Virus record (IMG/VR): IMGVR_UViG_3300044641_003805
Location: 1 to 24,697 of that record
Reading direction: 5' to 3' (one strand)
From: a virus
DNA: 24,697 bases
How positions within the stretch are numbered: position 1 is the first letter of the stretch; every line of letters begins with the position of its first letter. This document shows, one piece after another, positions 6,598-23,600 of the stretch. Made by a program: the position numbers and the translations under genes. The notes below the pieces were generated by a model. That model was not told where the DNA came from, searched no databases, and saw only the letters and a program-made list of their open reading frames with translations.

Positions 6598-7318
6598 TTA
6601 TTTCATTGCCATTTTCATAACCTCTGGATTAACCATTAGTTTTTGAAATTTTTGTTTATTACCATTTAAAATCTTCTTAACTAGTACATATTTTAAATCA
6701 TCAGTAAACACATCTTCAGTAGCTAATTTAATCAAACGGTCAATGATTGACTGGTTAATAATGTTGTCTTGAGAATAATTTACAGTAAAATTTATTAAAC
6801 GTGTAGTTAATACACTTGCAATATCTGCACGGTAGGAGTTATCAACACCTACACAATCACGAATAGATCCAAGTACCTCAGCATCATTTGCTTTTAGCAA
6901 CATATCTTTTGGTGTAACTAATTTATCTAACTTATTGTGAATAAATGAAGTAAACATAGTAGTAAACTCAGGCCCTACTGAGCCTTCACCAATCATTTGA
7001 ATTAGTGGTAAGTTATTACCAAAATCTTCAATGGAACTAATACAGTTAAAGAAAGTAGTAATAGATCTTGGATTTACACGTGCATTAACAAGTTCATCAT
7101 GTAATAACAAGAAGTTAATACAACGACCATCAATACGCTGAGACTCTGCCCAACGTGCCCATACATCTTTGTCAAACTTCAAGTTCACACTTACAAAGCG
7201 AGTTCTTTGAGCTGTATCAATAGATTGTACCAAATAGTCTCCGTTGTCCGGGTTAGCGGTCAACAAGATATGCCAGTCTTTTGGTAACTTCCAGGAGATG
7301 TATTCTTGTCTATCCACA
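6598..7318 (-). CDS. MoxR-type AAA+ ATPase, exon 2 (C-terminal part)
   Basis: Second exon of the AAA+ ATPase whose first exon is 8426-9156. Read alone it would appear as an ORF with a GTG start at 7317, but it begins mid-domain. Residues after the junction (VDRQEYISWKLPKDWHILLT, then ANPDNGDY) continue the MoxR pattern 'M-L-x-x-W-LP..W.i.lTANPD': TANPD is sensor 1, and the Arg-containing DTAQRTRF is in arginine-finger position. The remainder is the helical lid and a C-terminal helical region. Joined to exon 1 at a split Leu codon (CT|T) the product is 483 aa (1452 nt including stop, divisible by three). MoxR ATPases act with VWA-domain partners as chaperone or remodelling complexes, and a VWA protein is encoded immediately upstream of exon 1. 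Confidence 0.85.
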
Positions 7319-7592
7319 CATTATTGTTATCGCTAAGTTTTTTATCTTAGCTTCTGTATATCTCTATACAGGTCAGCATATATCTTCATACATTAGTATG
7401 CCGGGCACTCTTGGGTATATTATATTCTACAATGTAGTTTCAATACCTATGCGTTGAACCTTCCCAAATCTTTTAGATTTAAGCTTGGCTGCTGATTGTC
7501 TTATAATACTAAATTTTTCAAGCATTCACACTCACTGTTTCCAGTCATGTTGTAGCATTAGTATTTTCAAGATATCCCAGCAATTCACCCGG

Positions 7593-8381
7593 TTAGGAGC
7601 CCGTGGATAGACTCAAGTTATGAGTATCAGCTTTAACATAAGATGCTAAATACTTTCCTCTCACTTTTCTTGTTTGTGGTTTTTGTAAAACATAAGCAAG
7701 ATTACTTCTTATTATTTTCCAGTCACCTTGGTAATCAATATCTGCAGCAAGGTATCTTGCGCAATCAGATAAAGAGTTAAAAGACATGTAGAATTCCCCT
7801 CTTAGATTATATAAATATACAGTTCTAGTTTCTAAATTAGAGCCTGTATTACATATATATTTTCCAGGAGATTCTTTTTGATAAGACCATTGAAAACCGT
7901 GAGCAGTTTTGGATACTGTAACTTTTGGATTAGCACAAGCATGGATAGCATTATACGATATGTTTAATGTTCTTGCTGCAACCATTGCTGATTTCCACTC
8001 TTTTACAAATACTCCTTCTAGATCAAACTGGTATACAAATTTTTCACAAAATCCTCCTATACCTTTTATAGGATCATCTAGGTTTAGCTCTGCATTAAGT
8101 TTATCTACCCATTCTTTTTCTTTGGTTCTTAACTCTAAAGAAGTCATAAACAGATTATATATTTCAAGAATGCTATATTCGCAAGTTTTGTGCTTGTTAT
8201 ATAAATTCTGAAGATACCTATTATCATGTTTATTATTTCTTAAAAGCGTTCTATGTCTTCTTAGTCTTTTTTTTATGTTGACGCTGCTGCCTACATATTG
8301 TTTACCATTAATTTTCAAGAGATAAATGCCACAAAGATCTTTACCTCTAAGCTCTGCAAGCTGTTTGAATAAATCTTTCAT
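7593..8381 (-). CDS. GIY-YIG homing endonuclease (intron-encoded)
   Basis: A 262-aa homing endonuclease. Residues 17-31 carry the GIY (CGIYLL) and YVG (KQYVGSS) motifs, followed by the basic KKRLRRH with the catalytic-type Arg and, about 50 residues later, an E-W (KEKEWVDKLN) in position for the catalytic Glu (E88 or E90). Two C-terminal NUMOD1-like DNA-binding repeats follow: one about 116-167 (VYQFDLEGVFVKEW onward), one about 188-252 (VYLYNLRGEF onward). The protein would cut the intron-less AAA gene and so promote intron spread. The gene lies between the 5' splice site and the internal guide, that is, in the P1 loop; its last codons (LSTGS-stop) are themselves the P10/P1 guide sequence, tying RNA and protein evolution together. 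A hairpin sits 4 nt before the start. Confidence 0.92.
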   Translation of the reverse strand: MKDLFKQLAELRGKDLCGIYLLKINGKQYVGSSVNIKKRLRRHRTLLRNNKHDNRYLQNLYNKHKTCEYSILEIYNLFMTSLELRTKEKEWVDKLNAELNLDDPIKGIGGFCEKFVYQFDLEGVFVKEWKSAMVAARTLNISYNAIHACANPKVTVSKTAHGFQWSYQKESPGKYICNTGSNLETRTVYLYNLRGEFYMSFNSLSDCARYLAADIDYQGDWKIIRSNLAYVLQKPQTRKVRGKYLASYVKADTHNLSLSTGS

Positions 8382-8385
8382 ACTG

Positions 8386-8407
8386 CTAAAATAGCAAAAT
8401 ATTTTAG
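8386..8407 (-). promoter_or_regulatory. Hairpin just upstream of homing endonuclease start
   Basis: Within the intron RNA, CTAAAATA (8407-8400) pairs perfectly with TATTTTAG (8393-8386) around a TTTTGC loop, ending 4 nt before the endonuclease ATG (8381). In T4 introns a hairpin occluding the ribosome site limits endonuclease translation from the unspliced precursor; a similar role here is an inference from position. The stem is A/T-rich and modest in strength. Confidence 0.4.
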
Positions 8408-8425
8408 ATTATCCAAATTTATTTG

Positions 8426-9156
8426 AGCTCCATTACAGCTTGCAGGAAACGCACATCGGCACGGTTCCAGTCATCCAAGATTAAGAAACCACCACCTTGT
8501 TTGTCAGCAATCCACTCTGGTGGACAGTAAGACATACGCTTCTGACCAGTGAATTCATAACCACGCTTGATATATTCTTCTACAGCATTCTCATCAATCC
8601 ATAAACACTCTGAATTAAATGCGCCTTGAGGAGCATCTGCAGGAACTTCAATTTCCTCCATGATTGTTTCTTCAACTTCAACATCCACTAACACTTCTTC
8701 CTTAATCTTTACTTCTACTGGCATGTTTACAGTTTTCATTACAAACTTACCATCAGCCCCCATTACTTGTTTGTTTACAGGACGTATTTCTGTTACAGTT
8801 TTTTCAACTTCTTGAGGTTGTTGAATAGTTTTCTTGATTGTTTTTGGTACTTGTTTAGTAACCATTCCTACTGGAACAGCATCAGGTCCTTGTTTACATA
8901 ACTGGAACTGTCTAATTGGAAAACCCACCAAGTCACCTAACTCTTCAATTTGAGCTAAGTTCAACTTTACCACATTCATGGCTTGCTCATTTGCTAATTG
9001 TAATACAGAACTGGTTTTACCAATACCTGATTCACCAATAATTTCTACAGCTACTGCTGGCTTTCCATCTTTTTGTAAGAAGCGATTGTTATTAACTATG
9101 TGAGTTAAAAAATCTTTTACCTCATCAATATTTAAATTTACTTGTGCGTTATTCAT
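8426..9156 (-). CDS. MoxR-type AAA+ ATPase, exon 1 (N-terminal part)
   Basis: First exon of the AAA+ ATPase. Walker A is GESGIGKT (41-48). Walker B is GGFLILDDWNRAD (about 223-234) with the D228-D229 pair, followed by the helix VRFLQAVMEL, where the exon stops. Without splicing translation ends two codons later (LK-stop at 8419), giving a 245-aa protein without sensor 1, arginine finger and lid. Between the Walker motifs (about 99-173) is an unusual insertion alternating Val/Ile with charges: Lys-rich first half, a turn at MGADGKF, Glu-rich second half, so probably a long beta-hairpin. The gene starts 16 nt after the VWA/metallopeptidase gene, the usual genetic partner of MoxR ATPases. Spliced length 483 aa. 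Confidence 0.87.
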
Positions 9157-9172
9157 ATGTATTTATAAATTG

Positions 9173-10378
9173 TTAATTAAGTTTTATTTGTGGACCTATT
9201 AAATTTGGATTGAGATGTGAATGACTGCTTAGTACCCATAGCATTCGTCCTCTTGCAGGAGTTGGTGCTGAACATTCACCGTCTGTGAAATACATTAAAC
9301 AAGTGTACTTGTGTACATTCTCATTATAGTAATCAATCACAGGTTGAAAATCTGTTCCACCTCTTCCTTTAATCTGGATATCCTTCTTTATATTAAAAGG
9401 AGAGATATCACTGATAGCTGTATCACACTGAAGAACAGTTATATCTGTTCCAGTTTTATTTATGTGATATAACTCATTCATGCATTCACGTAATTCTTTA
9501 GAGCTTACAGAACCTGACGTATCAATTGCAAATAAAATATGACGTCTTGGTTTAATTTTCAAACCAGGATTTTCTTCATATCTCTTGTTATATTTACGTC
9601 TAGTCTTTTTAGTATAAATCTTAGTAGATCCTCCAGCAAATCTTCTAAGGTAACCCCGCCAATCAAATTTAGAAGGTTCTACCTCATCAATTTTTTTAAG
9701 AATTTCTCCAAATTCACCAGGTATTGTCCCACGGGATTTTATAACCTGATCAGCTATTTCTTTAAGAATGTGCTCTGTTTGTTTTTTAATAAGCTTTTGT
9801 GTAGCTTCAGGTAAATTTTCCATTTCTCCCCAACCAGAATGATCAGGTAATTGAATGTTTTCAGTACTGTTACCAACATTTAATTCTACAGTTAATTCAC
9901 CCTTACCCATAGCATCTAACATTGAATTAAGATTAGGACAAGTATTATTTTGAGTAGCTTCCATAAGCTTATCATAATAATACATAGTACCTTTCTTTTG
10001 TTCAAGGTTGAGTTCAGGAAATGTTGATGGTAATATAGGACCATCAGGTAAATCATCTATATCAATATACTGATTTATTTCACAGTCCATTGCAAGATTT
10101 GCTATTTCCTTATTACTAAGATGTGTGTAATCAGTTAAATGAAAAAATCCTATATGTAAAAGCTCATGTTTTAACAAACCTCTATGAGTTTTTTCTGTAA
10201 GATCTTTCCAAAAATTTTCATTTATTCTTAGTTCATAACTAATTCCTGATAAAGCAACACAAGCTGTTGGAATTTTTTCATCCCATTTCTTGTTCAGCAT
10301 TATCAGAAACATCCCGTAGAAGGGTTCCCTCAACATTAGATCTTTTGAGGCTTTTGCTAATTGTTCTACTTTGTTCAT
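9173..10378 (-). CDS. DUF2201-like putative metallopeptidase with VWA domain
   Basis: A 401-aa two-domain protein. The N-terminal domain (about 1-110) carries HELLHIGFFH (H71-E72...H75...H80), a zincin-like HExxHxxxxH, then AMDCEINQYI, as in COG3864/DUF2201 predicted metallopeptidases. A helical linker follows. The C-terminal VWA-like domain (about 275-401) has the metal-ion-dependent adhesion site: DTSGS (286-290), GGTDF (340-344) and FTDGE (364-368). In bacteria such proteins pair with MoxR-type AAA+ ATPases, the gene immediately downstream here (16-nt gap). Peptidase activity is not proven for the family. The N-terminal 'REPFYGMFLIML' matches the family's first helix, supporting the start at 10378 even though it overlaps the upstream gene by 101 nt. 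Confidence 0.85.
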   Translation of the reverse strand: MNKVEQLAKASKDLMLREPFYGMFLIMLNKKWDEKIPTACVALSGISYELRINENFWKDLTEKTHRGLLKHELLHIGFFHLTDYTHLSNKEIANLAMDCEINQYIDIDDLPDGPILPSTFPELNLEQKKGTMYYYDKLMEATQNNTCPNLNSMLDAMGKGELTVELNVGNSTENIQLPDHSGWGEMENLPEATQKLIKKQTEHILKEIADQVIKSRGTIPGEFGEILKKIDEVEPSKFDWRGYLRRFAGGSTKIYTKKTRRKYNKRYEENPGLKIKPRRHILFAIDTSGSVSSKELRECMNELYHINKTGTDITVLQCDTAISDISPFNIKKDIQIKGRGGTDFQPVIDYYNENVHKYTCLMYFTDGECSAPTPARGRMLWVLSSHSHLNPNLIGPQIKLN

Positions 10379-11556: not shown

Positions 11557-12093
11557 TTACAAGTTGTTTCTACGGGCGTACTCCGCCATTAATACTGCGT
11601 CAATTAATCCGTCATGAGGTACAGTTGCTCTGGTACCAAATGTTAATTTTAAATTTGGAAATATTCTAGTTACAGCAACAAGTGCCATAGCTTTAGTATC
11701 TCTTACTGGTTTCTTTCCAGTTTTACTGGGCTTGGTGATTTCTTCCACGCCTTGGAACATAGTCTTCTGCCAATCTACTGCTCTTACTTTAGTGTAAGGA
11801 AGTTGATTAGCTATTAAAGACATCTCAACAGCTCCTGCTTGGTTACCCATAGAAAATGCTGTTTGCTTACTTGAGCCAAAAATTACTCCTAATTTTTCAA
11901 AGACTACATACGCGTCTTTTCCTAAGTGACTAAAAGCTTCATTCTTAAAGTCTCTAACAATAGAATTTAACTGATGGTAGTTTAGCTCTGTTTTTATCTT
12001 AGGCATTTCAAATGTTTTTATTTCTCCATCTGGGTAGATGACGGCAATAGCACCGGACTTACCAATGTCTACACCCATATACACTTTACTCAT
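11557..12093 (-). CDS. RuvC-like Holliday junction resolvase
   Basis: A 178-aa RNase H-fold nuclease expected to resolve four-way and branched DNA before packaging. GVDIGKSGAIAV places the first catalytic Asp at D9. VVFEKLG gives E66, and the C-terminal helix HDGLIDAVLMAEYA gives D161 and D165, a standard RuvC set. The central segment (about 70-135) with SSKQTAFSMGNQAGAVEM and a Lys-rich loop fits the DNA-binding helix and loop. Its ATG overlaps the primase TGA in an ATGA junction, linking recombination and priming. RuvC-like proteins are usual in Bacteroidota phages of this type; catalytic residues are all present. Confidence 0.85.
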   Translation of the reverse strand: MSKVYMGVDIGKSGAIAVIYPDGEIKTFEMPKIKTELNYHQLNSIVRDFKNEAFSHLGKDAYVVFEKLGVIFGSSKQTAFSMGNQAGAVEMSLIANQLPYTKVRAVDWQKTMFQGVEEITKPSKTGKKPVRDTKAMALVAVTRIFPNLKLTFGTRATVPHDGLIDAVLMAEYARRNNL

Positions 12094-13082
12094 TTCAGTG
12101 CTTGTTTTAAAATTGGGGTTAATGTTTCTTTAACTTTTAAGAGACCGTGGTCTTTACCTGAATCACTAAGATCTTTAGACAAAGGTAAAAGAGCACCTTT
12201 TATTCCATACTTATCTTCATATGTAGCCATAGCTTTTATACCAGCTTGGTCATTATCAAAGAGAGTACAAATACCTTTGTATTTAATCTTAAAAGAATTA
12301 ATTACATGTTCTGGTATTAATGTGTTTTCACTATCTGGGGCTACAGATTCTGCTTCAGGATATCCAAGTTTATCAAAGAACATTAAATCCTTTAGAGAAC
12401 TGGTTATTACTAGATATTTTTTTTGATAAGTTAGTTGATCTATACCTTGTATATATTCTTTAACCTTAATAAACTTGTAATCAGTTAGATAAGGTTGATA
12501 GATTTTATATAATGTACCATCTGTTCTAAAATATCCATAAATACAATTTCTACCTGTAATGTTAAGTACATCTACCTGGTCATCTTTTTCTTTAGTCATC
12601 TCATAAGATTCAAGAGGATAAACATTGTATTTTTCTAGTAATTTGGAACCAATATAATATTTAGTCCAGTACTTTTGATCTACTGTTGTCCATCCTCTTT
12701 TTACAAATGAGGTTACCTTGTAGCGTTTTTGTATTTTAAATTCTCTAAGACTCAAATCTTCATTGTTTACAAGAAGCCATTTGTTATAGTCTTCAATAAT
12801 TTTATGGGCGCTTTCACCACGTGTACTAAGATTAAACATGGTTTGAACCAAGGATACATTATCACCTTGTTTACCAGTAGAAAAATCTCTATACATATAA
12901 TTATTGTTACCATTGTTTGCTACATATATGCCAAAGGAAGGACGTTTATCCTTAGGATTAAATGGAGATAATAACATAAGATTTTGACCTGTGAGCTTTT
13001 CTGTTAAATTAAGATAATACTCAAAGACCCATTGAACAGGTACATCTGTTAATTGTGTAATTAATACTTTTGTCCTAATCAT
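12090..13082 (-). CDS. DnaG-like TOPRIM primase
   Basis: A 330-aa primase-like protein. The N-terminal segment LLSPFNPKDKRPSFGIYV resembles the CHC2 fold of DnaG but lacks the zinc cysteines. The TOPRIM domain spans about 222-305: YLVITSSLKD, LFDNDQAG (D276, D278) and LPLSKDLSD (D304). The first TOPRIM motif normally has a catalytic Glu (EGxxD); here the position is Ser (TSSLKD), a substitution I recall in other Bacteroidota phage primases, so probably a lineage feature rather than decay. No C-terminal helicase-binding domain is evident. It is shorter than cellular DnaG (~600 aa). A terminator-like hairpin separates it from the SSB gene, and the resolvase follows with an ATGA overlap. Confidence 0.83.
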   Translation of the reverse strand: MIRTKVLITQLTDVPVQWVFEYYLNLTEKLTGQNLMLLSPFNPKDKRPSFGIYVANNGNNNYMYRDFSTGKQGDNVSLVQTMFNLSTRGESAHKIIEDYNKWLLVNNEDLSLREFKIQKRYKVTSFVKRGWTTVDQKYWTKYYIGSKLLEKYNVYPLESYEMTKEKDDQVDVLNITGRNCIYGYFRTDGTLYKIYQPYLTDYKFIKVKEYIQGIDQLTYQKKYLVITSSLKDLMFFDKLGYPEAESVAPDSENTLIPEHVINSFKIKYKGICTLFDNDQAGIKAMATYEDKYGIKGALLPLSKDLSDSGKDHGLLKVKETLTPILKQALK

Positions 13083-14472: not shown

Positions 14473-14997
14473 CTATTTGTTATTTGTGATGATATTATTC
14501 AGCCATGTTTTATGGCTTACTGGAATTTTCATATGAATTGCAGCGTAATCTCTAATGGTCATTTGGTCCATTGGAAGATCCTCATCAGGATTTGGGATTT
14601 GTGTAAAATCCAAATCTTTTTCTTGTTTTGGTGTAACAATTATTAACTCTTCTACTGGAATAAGATACCTAGAATGCCCCGTTGTTGGGTGAGACTCAGT
14701 TTTTTCATACTCCTCTTCAAAATGAGGATTAAAACGCCATTTGTATAAACGTCTTTCTGGGTCTTCTGGTACTAGATCTCTACTAGTAAATTCTACATAA
14801 ACATCTTCTCCTTTACTAATTTCACTAGCAAAGAATCCAATGTGTAAGTCTGTTTTGCCATATGGCCTGTAAGCCATTTTAGGAACAAAATAGGAGTTTG
14901 ATGCTCCTACACTCTCAAGGAGTGATTGATGATGTTCACGTAACTTTTTGACTTTGTCACGTCTGTCTTCTGGTTTTTCTACTGTTGATATACTCAT
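14473..14997 (-). CDS. Hypothetical protein (174 aa)
   Basis: Unrecognised 174-aa acidic protein. The N-terminus (1-30) is a charged helix (KPEDRRDKVKKLREHHQSLL). The middle has beta-like segments (MAYRPYGKTDLHIGFFASEI; EDVYVEFTSRDLV), and a Pro/Glu/Asp-rich linker around 130-145 precedes a C-terminal helix with DYAAIHMKIPVSHKTWLNNI. The DnaB gene overlaps its start by 4 nt (ATGA) and the RecT-like gene follows after 7 nt, so it is translated with replication proteins. An accessory replisome role, such as a helicase partner, is possible but only positional. Confidence 0.62.
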   Translation of the reverse strand: MSISTVEKPEDRRDKVKKLREHHQSLLESVGASNSYFVPKMAYRPYGKTDLHIGFFASEISKGEDVYVEFTSRDLVPEDPERRLYKWRFNPHFEEEYEKTESHPTTGHSRYLIPVEELIIVTPKQEKDLDFTQIPNPDEDLPMDQMTIRDYAAIHMKIPVSHKTWLNNIITNNK

Positions 14998-16043
14998 GTT
15001 GTTTTTACTTTTCTTTCTTGAGTTGGTGGAGGAGGTATTTCTTTAATCATCATTTTACTAAATTCAGCTTTAAAGAAACTCATTCTTGTGTCACCATTTC
15101 TGCACTTTAAAAAATGCATTACCATTATGTCATCACTATCAATGATATATTTGTCTGGTCCAAAAAATCTTATTTTCTTTAAACCAGGACGGTTTATACC
15201 AATAACCATGTCTGCATGTTGTAATAAAGCATCTGCACCAAAAATATCAGATTCAAGTATATAATTACCATACCTGCCTTCTTCTGCTCTTGAAGGTTCA
15301 TCTATATTCCTGTTAAGTTGAGTGAGAATTAAAAATATGATTGGGTACTTTCTTTTAAGAGCTGTTAATGCTTCACCTAGAGAGTACAAAGTATCATACT
15401 TATCTTTTTCAAATGAATCTTTTTTTAGTAATAAACTATGGTCTAATGTAATTATTGTCTTAGTGTAAGTTTTTACAACAACATCTTTCTCTACTAGAAC
15501 ATCATTTTCCTTAACAGTCTGTTTCACAGTACTATTTAGTGAATGAGTATTCATATACTGATCAATGTATTGTTTAAACTCTGCTACAGTACAGGGTTCT
15601 TCTATTATATCAATAGGATACTTTACTTTTTGTTTAGCATAATCTAGACATTTAGATAAGTCTTCCTGATTAATGATTTCATTTTTATCTGCACTACACA
15701 AAGCCTTGTAACTTTTACCAAGTAATGCTGAATATTCACGTATTGCAGAGACTTTTGCTAACATTTCTAATGAGAATTCTAATACTCTAAAATTTTCACC
15801 AGGATTTAGTTTAAAAGCCTCACGGATAATTTGATCTTTTAAAAGTGTTTTACCACTTGCAGGTCTTCCTCCAATTACAATAGTACTATTCCATTCAATA
15901 CCGTCTACACCAGCATCGTTAAATCTTGTCCAAGGTGTTCTTACACTTTTAATTTCACCTTTAAGTCTACCTTGAAGATATTTCAGTGATTCTTGAAAGC
16001 CATCACGTTGACTTTTCCATGGTTGTTTTTTCTTTGATTCCAT
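14994..16043 (-). CDS. Replicative DNA helicase, DnaB-type
   Basis: A 349-aa RecA-fold helicase corresponding to the C-terminal domain of DnaB; the ~130-aa N-terminal domain that contacts primase in bacteria is absent. Walker A is GGRPASGKT (58-66), and EFSLEM (89-94) is the DnaB H1a-type motif. Walker B is TIITLDHSLLL with D201. LTQLNR (Q242-R245) is motif H3, and FLKCRNGDT (about 311-319) is the H4/arginine-finger region. A Val/Lys/Thr-rich insertion at 170-197 (VKQTVKENDVLVEKDVVVKT) extends the Walker B strand region. A promoter-like element lies in the 113-nt upstream gap, and the gene heads the string through the RecT-like and SSB genes. Confidence 0.92.
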   Translation of the reverse strand: MESKKKQPWKSQRDGFQESLKYLQGRLKGEIKSVRTPWTRFNDAGVDGIEWNSTIVIGGRPASGKTLLKDQIIREAFKLNPGENFRVLEFSLEMLAKVSAIREYSALLGKSYKALCSADKNEIINQEDLSKCLDYAKQKVKYPIDIIEEPCTVAEFKQYIDQYMNTHSLNSTVKQTVKENDVLVEKDVVVKTYTKTIITLDHSLLLKKDSFEKDKYDTLYSLGEALTALKRKYPIIFLILTQLNRNIDEPSRAEEGRYGNYILESDIFGADALLQHADMVIGINRPGLKKIRFFGPDKYIIDSDDIMVMHFLKCRNGDTRMSFFKAEFSKMMIKEIPPPPTQERKVKTT

Positions 16044-19800: not shown

Positions 19801-20520
19801 TTACCATATGATTTTATATTTAAAATGTAGATAACAAAGATCTGATACTTTGTTAAACATGTTTTCTGAATTCCATTTTTCCATGTTGCTATGAGCAGCT
19901 GATGCAGGATGAGAACAAAATATCTTAAAATTATTTTCTGATACAGAATCTGCCCACTCTTGTGCTTTTCTACCCATAAAAACATATATTAATCCTGGAT
20001 TATAACACATTAATTGATCCATTAGGAAAGCCATGAACGGTTGCCATATGTTGTAATGTTGACCTACTTTTCCTACAGTAGTAGTAAAAGCTGAATTTAA
20101 CATTAGTATGCCTTGGTTTGACCACCGTTTAAGATCTTTATCCCATACATAACCATTTGGATATACTATGTCTTCAATTTCTTTAAACATGTAACGCATT
20201 GATGCCTCTGGATTTTTAGTGTTAGAACAAGAAAATGCTATACCATCTGCTACACCCATGTGAGGATAAGGATCTTGACCAATCATTACAACTTTAAGTT
20301 GATCATATGGACATTCTTCAAAAGCTCTAAAAACTTGTTTCAGTTGAGGAGTAAATCTTTTACCTTCTTGAGCATCTTTTAGTAAAGCCTGTAAGATTTT
20401 ATCAAAGTCTGAACTCAAAATAAAAGTTTTTAATTTATCCGCCCAACCTGAAGGCTTAAGTTTTTCATATAACTTTTGTTTTATTTCTTCTAAATTTATT
20501 GTGTTTATTTTTGTAGTCAT
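19801..20520 (-). CDS. ung: Uracil-DNA glycosylase, family 1
   Basis: A 239-aa family 1 uracil-DNA glycosylase that excises uracil from DNA. The water-activating motif is GQDPYPH (81-87; D83), followed by GVADGIAFS, where host enzymes have GQAHGLAFS. The uracil-binding Asn lies in ILMLNSAFTT (N142), and the Leu-loop motif is SHPASAAHSN (H204), a variant of HPSPLS. All catalytic residues are retained and the length is normal. Phage Ung proteins support genome fidelity or base removal, and in crAss-like phages ung sits among replication genes as here. It is followed after 3 nt by the SF1 helicase and is divergent from the 120-aa plus-strand gene. Confidence 0.92.
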   Translation of the reverse strand: MTTKINTINLEEIKQKLYEKLKPSGWADKLKTFILSSDFDKILQALLKDAQEGKRFTPQLKQVFRAFEECPYDQLKVVMIGQDPYPHMGVADGIAFSCSNTKNPEASMRYMFKEIEDIVYPNGYVWDKDLKRWSNQGILMLNSAFTTTVGKVGQHYNIWQPFMAFLMDQLMCYNPGLIYVFMGRKAQEWADSVSENNFKIFCSHPASAAHSNMEKWNSENMFNKVSDLCYLHFKYKIIW

Positions 20521-20560: not shown

Positions 20561-20923
20561 ATGGAAGATAACAAACAACCACCAGTTGATTCAACTGAAC
20601 CAGAAAAAATCAAATTAACAACTATTTCTCCACAAGAATTAATTGATATCAAAGTCTCAGGACATTTCTTAAATAAAGCACAAAAGCTATTAATGACCAT
20701 GTGTGCTGAAGTAGGAGAAAAAGAAATGCTTGCTATATTTGAACGGATTAAAGATAACAAACCTGCTGAAAGTAGTCATGAAGAAGCAATCATTATGTTA
20801 TTATCTATTGTTGACGGTATTGAAAAAGCTGCTTTAGAGCAAAACAAAGCCTCAATAAAAGAATACACAGGAGAAGAAGCTATAAAACTTTTTCAATTTC
20901 AGAATGCAAATGATTTTATCTAA
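20561..20923 (+). CDS. Hypothetical protein (120 aa)
   Basis: Unrecognised 120-aa acidic protein (Glu/Asp/Lys rich) on the plus strand. After a disordered Pro/Glu-rich N-terminus (about 1-22) it is predicted all-helical (LNKAQKLLMTMCAEVGEKEM; HEEAIIMLLSIVDGIEKAAL), with no membrane span or Cys motif. It is the only single gene on the plus strand, divergent from ung and overlapping the convergent 134-aa gene by 8 nt. Opposite orientation to its neighbours and its own promoter-like box suggest separate timing. The minus-strand ORF across the same bases is a shadow. Confidence 0.58.
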   Translation: MEDNKQPPVDSTEPEKIKLTTISPQELIDIKVSGHFLNKAQKLLMTMCAEVGEKEMLAIFERIKDNKPAESSHEEAIIMLLSIVDGIEKAALEQNKASIKEYTGEEAIKLFQFQNANDFI

Positions 20924-21320
20924 AATTAATTCCCACCATATCCCCTGCATATATTAGTGATTCAATTACTAAACTTAATTCTTCTTTAGAGCACTCAGCT
21001 AGAGATTTGCAAAAAAGTACCTTTTCTCCATCATAGTCTACAACAAAACACAAACCTGACATTTTTAGAATGTCAAGTTTTGTTTTGTCAAACATTTCAC
21101 CCTGTTCTTTTGCTAACTCTCTAATACAAACATGAATTTTTGCAAGTTGAGCAAGAGTTCCATCATCTTTATGAGCTTCCATAAACATGTCTGCAATTTG
21201 ACCTAATTCAAGACTTTTAACAAAAGCTTCAAATTTTGGTTTAACTGCTTCTACAGGAGACATTTTAGTTTCACCAGTTTTTATAAATTTACCATGAAAT
21301 ATGTTATGCTTTTGAGCCAT
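20916..21320 (-). CDS. Hypothetical protein (134 aa)
   Basis: Unrecognised 134-aa protein. A basic N-terminus (MAQKHNIFHGKFIKTGETKM) leads into helices (FEAFVKSLELGQIADMFMEA; AQLAKIHVCIRELAKEQGEM), then a strand pair (SGLCFVVDYDGEKVLFCKSL) and a last helix. It may be a mixed alpha/beta small regulator, but no family is evident. It overlaps by 17 nt the 47-aa basic ORF upstream and by 8 nt the convergent plus-strand gene, so it closes the accessory operon that begins beyond 24.6 kb. Confidence 0.58.
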   Translation of the reverse strand: MAQKHNIFHGKFIKTGETKMSPVEAVKPKFEAFVKSLELGQIADMFMEAHKDDGTLAQLAKIHVCIRELAKEQGEMFDKTKLDILKMSGLCFVVDYDGEKVLFCKSLAECSKEELSLVIESLIYAGDMVGINFR

Positions 21321-21465: not shown

Positions 21466-21711
21466 TTATACTTTTTTGTAACCTTTTTTAACTTTATCAT
21501 TTATCAGCTTACCATAAATACTTGAAGCTTTTTCAAAAGATACTGGAATTGGAGTTTTAGTACCTTTGATCAGGATTGATCCCCTGCGTCCGTATGCAAA
21601 TATAACAACATATTTATCATCTTCTATTGGTTTTAATGTAACATTGTAAACCTTATCAGAGAATGTGTCATAATAATGCAAGCGTGTTATTTCTACTGTT
21701 TCTTTAGTCAT
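21466..21711 (-). CDS. Stand-alone WGR-domain protein
   Basis: An 81-aa protein consisting of one WGR-like domain. Strands YNVTLKPIEDDKYVVIFAYG (22-41) carry the signature as YGRRGS, with Tyr replacing Trp. The helix FEKASSIYGKLINDKVKKGY (59-78) has the usual 'f...i..K..kGY' ending. WGR domains in PARPs and in MolR-type bacterial proteins bind DNA ends or nucleic acid, so a DNA-binding role is plausible. It overlaps the zinc-ribbon gene upstream by 8 nt. Confidence 0.72.
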   Translation of the reverse strand: MTKETVEITRLHYYDTFSDKVYNVTLKPIEDDKYVVIFAYGRRGSILIKGTKTPIPVSFEKASSIYGKLINDKVKKGYKKV

Positions 21712-21964
21712 TAGAAAGTTTGTATAAATTTAAAGCCCATGGTTTATGTTTTGTTTTTCCTGTGACATCTTCAATTGTAAAAGGTATATAACCACAATCT
21801 TCAAAGTCTTTTCCATTTTTAGGTAAACAACTTCTTAGATCATCTTCTATGGCTTTACAACTCATGCAAATAATATCAGTATTAAACCAAGACATTGTTC
21901 TGCTTTTAAGAGGTTCTGCACAACGCTTGCAGAAATTTAATGTAAAAAAGTTATCTGTACTCAT
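21704..21964 (-). CDS. Small zinc-ribbon-like protein
   Basis: An 86-aa protein with two CxxC knuckles, C12-C15 (FCKRCAEPL) and C33-C36 (IICMSCKAIED), separated by SRTMSWFNTD. This treble-clef/zinc-ribbon pattern recurs in phage and plasmid small proteins of unknown role. The C-terminal half (about 50-86) is less structured and contains a FEDCGYIPFTIED stretch. It probably binds one zinc and may contact nucleic acid or protein. It lies 5 nt downstream of clpS and overlaps the WGR gene by 8 nt. Confidence 0.65.
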   Translation of the reverse strand: MSTDNFFTLNFCKRCAEPLKSRTMSWFNTDIICMSCKAIEDDLRSCLPKNGKDFEDCGYIPFTIEDVTGKTKHKPWALNLYKLSND

Positions 21965-21969
21965 GTTGA

Positions 21970-22257
21970 TTAATTTTCTATTTTAGCTGTAAGACCTTGG
22001 TCTAGTAAAGCTTCACACACTGGTAAAAGTTTATCAAATGACCCATTTTTTACAGCACATTTGCCGTTGTTATGTATAATGTGAGCACATTGTTCAGCTT
22101 GCAATATGTTATGTTCACAATACTTTATAAAACACAATATGACATGCTCAAAAGTATTTACATTATCATTATACACAACAATGGATTTTGTTTTTTCTTT
22201 TTTTTCTAAAATAAGTACGTCATCATCCAGTAGGGGATTATATGTCATCTCCATCAT
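21970..22257 (-). CDS. clpS: ClpS-like Clp protease adaptor
   Basis: A 95-aa homologue of ClpS, the N-end-rule adaptor that delivers substrates to ClpAP/ClpCP. The core SIVVYNDNVNTFEHVILCFI (25-44) contains the N-degron pocket residues N30-D31; AHIIHNNGKCAV (58-69) supplies the conserved His (H62) and GK. The end 'LLPVCEALLDQGLTAKIEN' matches the final helix and strand. Sequence resembles Bacteroidota (flavobacterial) ClpS more than the E. coli type, so capture from the host lineage is likely. The N-terminal extension (about 1-22), which engages the Clp ATPase, is present though divergent. It could redirect or block host Clp proteolysis. It overlaps the coiled-coil gene by 20 nt. Confidence 0.87.
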   Translation of the reverse strand: MMEMTYNPLLDDDVLILEKKEKTKSIVVYNDNVNTFEHVILCFIKYCEHNILQAEQCAHIIHNNGKCAVKNGSFDKLLPVCEALLDQGLTAKIEN

Positions 22258-22489
22258 GTAAAAAGTTTAACATTTTATTTCTTTCTTCTATAGCTTCTAG
22301 CCTTGGTTTGTCTAATTCTACAATAGACTCACCTGCCATTTCTAAATCTGTTTCTATCTCATCAATAAAAATAATTAAATCATTTAATTTTTTAGACAAA
22401 GCTTTAGTAATTTGCTGATTAGCAAGTATTTTTTGAATATACTTTAATTGCTCTTTTTGTTGAGCAAGTTTTTTAAGATTTATCTCCAT
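22238..22489 (-). CDS. Hypothetical coiled-coil protein (83 aa)
   Basis: An 83-aa all-helical protein with heptad-like Leu/Ile spacing through most of its length (LKKLAQQKEQLKYIQKILAN; LNDLIIFIDEIETDLEMAG). A polar break near SIVELDKPRL suggests an antiparallel helical hairpin. No family recognised. It overlaps clpS downstream by 20 nt and the 83-aa gene upstream by 17 nt, which supports translation. It could be a dimerisation or inhibitor protein; no further inference is possible. Confidence 0.55.
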   Translation of the reverse strand: MEINLKKLAQQKEQLKYIQKILANQQITKALSKKLNDLIIFIDEIETDLEMAGESIVELDKPRLEAIEERNKMLNFLHDGDDI

Positions 22490-22724
22490 CTTTTGGTTCT
22501 TGAGGATTAATGTTTGGGTCAGTAAATAAATGTTGGAACATTGTATGATTCCAACATAATTTTATCTGAGTACTATTGTAATGTTTTATTTCACGGGTCT
22601 TCTCATTAGCGACTACCCAGATTGTGTTTTCATGTGGACCATAGTCCATTATCATGAGGACAATACCATCTCCATGTGGTGTTTCCACCCATAGAATTTG
22701 GTGTAATTCATGAATTGCTGTCAT
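22473..22724 (-). CDS. Conserved hypothetical protein (83 aa)
   Basis: An 83-aa protein with a short beta-rich domain: LHQILWVETPHGDGIVLMIM, followed by DYGPHENTIWVVANEKTREI then KHYNSTQIKLCWN. The 'WV.TP.G.g....idyG...NTIWvv......i.H..s..i......' pattern is one I associate with small proteins in Bacteroidota phages and mobile elements, with no known function. The C-terminus is disordered and charged. It is 12 nt downstream of the radical SAM gene. Confidence 0.62.
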   Translation of the reverse strand: MTAIHELHQILWVETPHGDGIVLMIMDYGPHENTIWVVANEKTREIKHYNSTQIKLCWNHTMFQHLFTDPNINPQEPKDGDKS

Positions 22725-22736
22725 AATTTTTATTAT

Positions 22737-23600
22737 TTAAAAAATGTATCTGATTGTGTTCCACGGTATAATTTTATCATGCAATTCAGTCCACTGTTTA
22801 ATGTACTGAGCTTTAAGACCATGTTTATACCTTATATTTTCACCACCATACTGTGAAATTTTTCCTTCCTGTATCTCAGGCTTCCATAATAAATCTTCTC
22901 CTGGTAAGTTGTTAGCTAGATTATACATGTGTTTGTCTTCATTATGAGTCAAAAAAATCACCTCACATTTTACTTTGGACCTGTTTTCCGGACTTACTCC
23001 ACCCTGTACCTGTCTAAATAACTCTCCATACTCTACTAACCAGTTAGCTGTAACTATTACCGGAGAGAAATTTATATGCACATCATAACCCGCGGCTATG
23101 AATCTGTCAATTGCTTTTATTCTCAGGTCAATAGGTGTAGTATTAGGTTCAAGTTTTTCAGAATAAGATGTCGGCATAAGACTAAAGCGGATTCTAATCT
23201 TCCCCTGAGGGTTATAATCCAACAAGTCTTCTCTGACATACTTAGTAGCAAAACTACCCATAGCTAGCTCATGACTTTTGAAAAAATCAAATATCTTTTG
23301 CCACTCATGATGTTTTGCATGTAAAGCAAAGTCTTCATTACAGGAAATGTCATAAGTAATATGCTTCTCATGTGTTTGGTTAGGCTTCTCTACTGTAGCA
23401 AACCAGGCATGATGATCAATAGCTGTAAGTATATCTTCTGTGTTAGTAGCTACTGTTAAACCTGTAGGTTTATGTCTCTTCATGTAACAATAACTACAGT
23501 TAAAACCTAAGCAACCATGACCAAAGCTAGGCGAGATAAAATCAGTTGACCTACCACTAGGCCTTATGACCATAGACTTTCTAGTTACTTTCTCTACCAT
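22737..23600 (-). CDS. Radical SAM protein, spore photoproduct lyase-like
   Basis: A 287-aa radical SAM enzyme of the SPL-like group. The cluster motif lies in FGHGCLGFNCSYCYMKRHKP: C30, C35 and C38, that is CX4CX2C, one residue longer than the normal CX3CX2C; the nucleotide sequence confirms this spacing. Further family-type elements are SMVIRPSGRSTDFISPSFGH at the N-terminus, FATKYVREDLL, KIRIRFSLMPT and AGYDVHINFSPVIV (TIM-barrel strands). SPL repairs the spore photoproduct; phage relatives may repair or modify DNA thymines, but the substrate is unknown. It lies in the accessory gene string, overlapping the 94-aa gene upstream by 20 nt. Confidence 0.8.
   Translation of the reverse strand: MVEKVTRKSMVIRPSGRSTDFISPSFGHGCLGFNCSYCYMKRHKPTGLTVATNTEDILTAIDHHAWFATVEKPNQTHEKHITYDISCNEDFALHAKHHEWQKIFDFFKSHELAMGSFATKYVREDLLDYNPQGKIRIRFSLMPTSYSEKLEPNTTPIDLRIKAIDRFIAAGYDVHINFSPVIVTANWLVEYGELFRQVQGGVSPENRSKVKCEVIFLTHNEDKHMYNLANNLPGEDLLWKPEIQEGKISQYGGENIRYKHGLKAQYIKQWTELHDKIIPWNTIRYIF

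Follow-up and report, generated by a model that had tools for sequence, protein, structure and literature searches.

The window analysed here, a stretch of 24,697 nucleotides spanning positions 1 to 24,697 of the IMG/VR virus record IMGVR_UViG_3300044641_003805, carries a clpS gene (21970..22257, minus strand) as part of a compact series of genes on that strand. Two ORFs of unknown function, each of 83 aa, lie upstream of it; the first (22238..22489, minus) shares 20 bases with the start of clpS and has homologues beside clpS at 7 loci, with 52-60% identity apart from two identical contigs, and the second (22473..22724, minus) overlaps the first by 17 bases and has homologues in 8 loci. On the downstream side, an 86-aa ORF with CxxC pairs (21704..21964, minus) starts 5 bases past clpS; it matches phrog_27033 with an E of 2e-8, and its zinc-ribbon match is weak and below the cut-off (E 0.034). 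This ORF shares an 8-base overlap with the gene for an 81-aa WGR-domain protein (21466..21711, minus; PF05406, 27.2 bits against a cut-off of 22). Further downstream follow, in this order, genes for a NinB-like recombination protein (20916..21320, minus; PF05772 with E 0.005, below the cut-off; homologues in 43 loci), a uracil-DNA glycosylase (UNG; 19801..20520, minus; PF03167, 43 bits), a Dda-like helicase, a DnaB-like replicative helicase (14994..16043, minus; PF03796, 51.3 bits), a crAss-like primase (12090..13082, minus; BLAST match to the crAss cr7_1 primase at 7e-27) and a family B polymerase.

Further features were noted in the window. Upstream of the two ORFs of unknown function lies a gene for a spore-photoproduct-lyase-like radical SAM protein (22737-23600, minus; PF20903, 84.9 bits), which is kept near clpS in many contigs with best matches at 71-82% identity, and for which tblastn found no match among 50,697 phage records. 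A MoxR-like AAA+ gene (6598-9156, minus) is apparently split into an N-terminal half (8419-9156) and a C-terminal half (6598-7317), and between the halves lie a GIY-YIG/NUMOD1 homing endonuclease (7593-8381) and a group I intron (7354-7650; Rfam RF00028, 56.8 bits) that a whole-window scan at the gathering threshold had missed. The split gene adjoins one for a DUF2201 protein (9173-10378, minus) with a metallopeptidase-like N-terminal part and a VWA-like domain, and the two together resemble the MoxR/VWA chaperone pair.

The clpS Gene Encodes a Complete ClpS

The clpS reading frame runs on the minus strand from an ATG start to a TAA stop and encodes 95 aa. Its product matches Pfam PF02617 over residues 20-86 with 51.6 bits (cut-off 23) and an E of 8.4e-14, and this ORF is the single PF02617 match in the whole 24.7 kb record. 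An AlphaFold2 model, built from an alignment of 54 sequences, has a mean pLDDT of 86.5, and from residue 21 onward the values of the core are mostly above 90. When the model was searched with Foldseek, the best 40 matches were all to ClpS or to Ubr1 through its ClpS-like domain, and VIA-align superposed it on Mycobacterium smegmatis ClpS (9ayn) with a Z of 15.3 and an rmsd of 0.9 over 75 residues; the Z values for Arabidopsis ClpS1 and E. coli ClpS were 14.9 and 14.3, respectively. Ribosomal L7/L12, a known fold relative, came next after the ClpS structures with a Z of about 10. The initial annotation had read a complete, phage-borne ClpS from the sequence, and this is upheld by the Pfam score, the AlphaFold2 core and the Z values of 13-15 to solved ClpS structures; the structure prediction, for which it had named a mismatch with ClpS as a refutation, does return the ClpS fold. 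Two contigs of different IMG/VR datasets (L002 and L003) encode a ClpS 100% identical to that of the window and have the same neighbours, so that the window clpS is not an assembly accident. Judged from sequence and model together, the ORF is a genuine and intact ClpS.

The protein consists of an N-terminal extension (residues 1-23) and a core (residues 24-95), with N30, N32 and H62 as predicted pocket residues and F36 at the gatekeeper position. In the alignment, E. coli N34, D35 and H66 correspond to N30, D31 and H62 of the window ClpS, and E. coli D36 corresponds to N32. The substrate α-amino group is touched in Caulobacter ClpS by N47, D49 and H79 (PMC12493166), which are equivalent to E. 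coli N34/D36/H66 and to window N30/N32/H62. The pocket had originally been given as N30, D31 and H62; all three residues are present, and N30 and H62 are contact residues, but the true third contact is D36/N32, and D31 is its conserved neighbor.

Phage Lineage and Host

The family B polymerase of the window gave its top bit scores against Cellulophaga phage phi14:2 (Crassvirales), Flavobacterium phages head the match list of the Dda-like helicase, and the nearest relatives of DnaB and UNG among named phages are crAss-like, e.g., cr7_1, DAC15 and crAss001. The 24.7 kb window contains no structural genes; nine clpS-bearing contigs each encode relatives of two phi14:2 proteins, the terminase and the major capsid protein (E 1e-7 to 1e-15, 23-28% identity), and most of the nine share the gene block of the window, several being 102-122 kb in length. 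Given the relatives of the replication genes and the terminase and capsid genes in these nine contigs, the window is placed by sequence relationship within or beside the crAss-like phages. The same ClpS type, at 40-52% identity to the window protein, occurs in three phages of 634-642 kb (LR745206, LR756502 and LR756504), which are of the same size as genomes for which Bacteroidetes hosts have been predicted (PMC7162821). Based on the crAss-like replication genes and on the presence of the same ClpS type in huge phages with predicted Bacteroidetes hosts, the host of the window phage is likely, but unproven, to belong to the Bacteroidota.

A Full-Length Extension and an Extension-Less Sister Clade

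About 23 residues of low pLDDT precede the first core strand of the window ClpS, as compared with 26 in E. coli ClpS. The disordered extension of E. coli ClpS is the part on which ClpA pulls to make ClpS let go of its cargo, and delivery stops when the extension is blocked (PMC9663308). Since its extension is close in length to that of E. coli, the window ClpS would by this criterion be capable of delivery. Tandem prolines, which are usual at the junction between extension and core (PMC9663308), are absent from this junction in the window ClpS, which reads KKEKTK there.

A sister clade of viral ClpS with 23 distinct sequences (L009, L010, L064-L096 in part, L149, L167, L183, L188, L189 and L193) has an extension of only about 7 residues. 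The branch has a support of 100/85, with two changes on a stricter tree, and an in-frame stop is located 0-15 codons 5′ of the start in the extension-less genes. Crass-like terminase and capsid genes are present in four records of the clade (L010, L071, L076 and L084), and the fold of the L010 protein is confidently predicted (pLDDT 91). N30 or H62 has been lost in six sequences, through three events, all in the extension-less clade, and both residues are kept in 50/50 long-extension viral ClpS; the association between pocket loss and short extension has a Fisher p of 7e-4 when the relatedness of the sequences is ignored. This pattern suggests, without proving, that the extension-less forms have another job, e.g., blocking. 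A broader picture, which we put forward tentatively as possible rather than probable, is that clpS of environmental crAss-like phages is inherited within the replication block and operates in two modes, where long forms would deliver N-degron proteins to host Clp and extension-less forms, some of them pocketless, would bind without delivering and act as blockers of N-degron degradation in the host. The split between full-length and extension-less forms represents a natural test of whether phage ClpS serves for destroying or for shielding proteins.

Proposed Function of the Window ClpS

We propose that the window ClpS probably acts as an adaptor, supplying a Clp unfoldase of the host with N-degron proteins. 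During infection, the window ClpS would bind proteins exposing a bulky hydrophobic N-terminal residue and dock on the host unfoldase (ClpA/ClpC) via the N-domain of the latter; the unfoldase would then pull on the N-terminal extension of ClpS, and the bound N-degron protein would be passed to host ClpP and degraded. Host fragments, defence proteins or proteins of the phage itself are conceivable targets. Sequence and model together provide a pocket formed by N30, H62 and a hydrophobic wall. The N-domain of ClpA/ClpC (Clp_N) was found in 0/46 records examined, and, as no record examined has a phage ClpA/ClpC, the protease must be that of the host. The leucyl/phenylalanyl transferase was found in 0/36 records examined, and ClpP matches were confined to LR756504 (636 kb) and to a contig of 288 kb with the same ClpS. 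The residues with which E. coli ClpS grips ClpA (E79, E82 and K84) align, in a poorly aligned stretch, with D75, L78 and V80 of the window protein, and since these contacts are not conserved, the sequence does not establish that the protein docks on an N-domain of the ClpA type.

The opposite outcome, which we regard as unlikely, is interference, in which the phage ClpS would occupy the host Clp N-domain or cap N-degrons, with a net block of host ClpS-dependent or ssrA-type degradation and with protection of phage proteins. A precedent exists in that E. coli ClpS inhibits the degradation of ssrA-tagged substrates and a blocked extension stops delivery (PMC9663308), and the sister clade, with its short extension and with pocket losses found only there, makes a non-delivering role plausible elsewhere in the family. 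However, the window ClpS has a full-length extension, keeps N30 and H62 and gives no sign of lost delivery. Far less probable still is that the protein is a non-adaptor member of the ClpS/L7-L12 fold with some other partner, e.g., the ribosome or translation factors; although the L7/L12 C-terminal domains are next best to the model and some jumbo-phage ClpS-like proteins (Atu_ph07, GAP32) appear to have lost the pocket, ClpS structures fit the model clearly better, the PF02617 score is well above the cut-off and the pocket residues are retained.

Asn32 as a Naturally Occurring Variant

The initial annotation had pointed out that D36 of E. coli ClpS is Asn here (YNDN) and that this might alter specificity. 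The replacement itself is confirmed, as N32 aligns with D36, precisely a contact position, and an Asn in place of the Asp that contacts the α-amino group (D49/D36) could weaken binding in the window ClpS. The third contact Asp of Caulobacter (D49) is absent not only from the window ClpS (Asn32) but also from Arabidopsis ClpS1, which reads H-N-D-N in a structure with bound peptide (7d34), and from M. smegmatis ClpS, which was solved with Phe-Ala (9ayo) and reads W-D-D-P, hence with Pro at the contact position; because these two proteins also lack the Asp, it does not define the ClpS family. The ClpS of phage PA5oct, which is of a quite different type, likewise has N-D-N. Among 63 distinct viral ClpS, a tally that leaves out the Prochlorococcus row, position 32 is Asp in 42, Asn in 11, Glu in 5, Ser in 3, Lys in 1 and Pro in 1, i.e., a residue other than Asp in 21/63. 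When changes were counted on a viral ClpS tree built after removal of the trait columns, position 32 had changed a minimum of 17 times, versus 2 times each for N30 and H62. Even the close pair L062/L063 differs at this position, and L004, L024 and L025, relatives of the window ClpS, have Asp. By alignment and tree, position 32 is a loose position at which Asn is a natural variant. That the exchange confers a new substrate specificity is thus highly improbable: the position does contact the substrate α-amino group in Caulobacter ClpS (D49; PMC12493166), but this contact is to the backbone amine and not to the side chain that sets specificity, two ClpS with Asn or Pro at this position have structures with bound peptide, and the viral tree requires a minimum of 17 changes of the residue, which differs even within the close pair L062/L063.

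clpS Is an Old and Maintained Phage Gene

An IMG/VR scan with an alignment of seven viral ClpS matched 112 contigs, of which 80 were kept. The clpS gene lies on the same strand as NinB and UNG, usually within about 1-7 kb, at 43-44 of 89 loci, with DnaB coming after them in most. When contigs were ranked by the closeness of their DnaB to that of the window, 19 of the first 80 extend 7 kb or more upstream of dnaB, and clpS is located in this upstream part in 11 of the 19; a profile search of 27 such DnaB-relative records detected clpS in 13. The survey of related phages that had been suggested along with the first reading of this locus places relatives of the gene in more than 100 IMG/VR contigs. 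In named crAss-like phages clpS was not found (tblastn with two different queries; profile on phi14:2 and cr7_1), and plasmid sequences gave no match. A scan of genome contigs yielded a Prochlorococcus ClpS as its sole match. A fecal match, MT835505, was rejected as a clpS relative, the match lying inside a long frame unlike the ClpS family.

ClpS distances correlate with DnaB distances across 26 genomes (Mantel r 0.77, p 0.0005), DnaB being the gene tracked best, and this correlation is at least as strong as that between UNG and DnaB (r 0.52). The dN/dS of clpS is 0.01-0.30 in 18/20 pairs, and the other two, at about 0.6, are pairs of very closely related sequences separated by few changes. 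Given the synteny, the congruence with DnaB and the dN/dS values, these comparisons indicate that clpS is an old, maintained phage gene under purifying selection and not a recent host capture. The idea of an individual acquisition from the host lineage, raised earlier from a presumed close match to Bacteroidota ClpS, is weakened, as clpS is syntenic and coevolving with phage replication genes across a wide lineage. A Bacteroidota ClpS may have been the original source of the gene, for which the occurrence of this ClpS type in the 634-642 kb phages is an indirect indication. A recent incidental capture without a selected function in the phage is barely credible, since, although phages do take up host genes and the window has no second clpS copy or partner genes, the gene is under purifying selection, is congruent with DnaB and keeps its gene order over many divergent contigs. 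The crAss-like phages form a widespread group infecting Bacteroidota, and the presence, in one of their environmental branches, of a clpS that is conserved and under selection suggests that redirection of host N-degron degradation is a regular part of the replication programme.

Comparison With Known ClpS Proteins

Cellular ClpS proteins whose structures have been solved in complex with N-degrons (E. coli, Caulobacter, M. smegmatis and Arabidopsis ClpS1) have their fold in common with the window ClpS but only 15-27% identity to it, and the gatekeeper Met40 is replaced by Phe36 in the window protein. The pocket Asn and His are as in the window in E. coli, Caulobacter and Arabidopsis ClpS. E. 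coli ClpS resembles the window protein in extension length and differs from it in the ClpA-contact residues. Leptospira ClpS1 and the cyanobacterial-type ClpS (L013) have Asn at the D49 position as in the window (PMC12493166), whereas their pocket His is swapped for Asp and that of the window is retained. A Clp_N protein is present in Bacteroides ihuae, with no ClpS match, and the named gut crAss-like phages are also without a clpS match; the presence of clpS in phage and in host may go together.

Among phages, ClpS is annotated in the jumbo phages PA5oct, Phosso, Atu_ph07, GAP32 and Vibrio phage 2.275, and jumbo-phage ClpS has been proposed to bring targets to host ClpAP (Iyer et al., 2021, PMC7824862). 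These proteins are phage-borne and have the same proposed role as that of the window, and PA5oct shares the N-D-N pocket motif. In contrast to the window, whose crAss-like lineage includes members of around 100-120 kb, they are of Proteobacterial type and come from phages of about 280-490 kb, and in the tree PA5oct and Phosso ClpS lie across a well-supported branch from the window type. The PA5oct protein (L103) retains both N-D-N and the His; the annotated ClpS of Atu_ph07 (L105, 1986-2288; HDDQ..IESAG) and of GAP32 (L108, 1821-2354; INTA..IKYEG) have apparently lost the pocket. The phages LR745206, LR756502 and LR756504 of the Mahaphage clade (PMC7162821) have the ClpS type of the window but are huge phages. 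LR756504.1 (W01; 636 kb) has three ClpP matches (146269-146691, 291828-292355 and 370879-371409), one of which reads through an in-frame TGA, and no ClpA/ClpC N-domain. Queries with the phi14:2 capsid and terminase gave no match in the 288 kb contig bearing the identical ClpS. A phage ClpS with an adaptor role is thus already published (PMC7824862), and the window clpS adds another member to this group; the fixation of clpS in crAss-like phages and the extension-less branch seem, within the open literature, to be described here for the first time.
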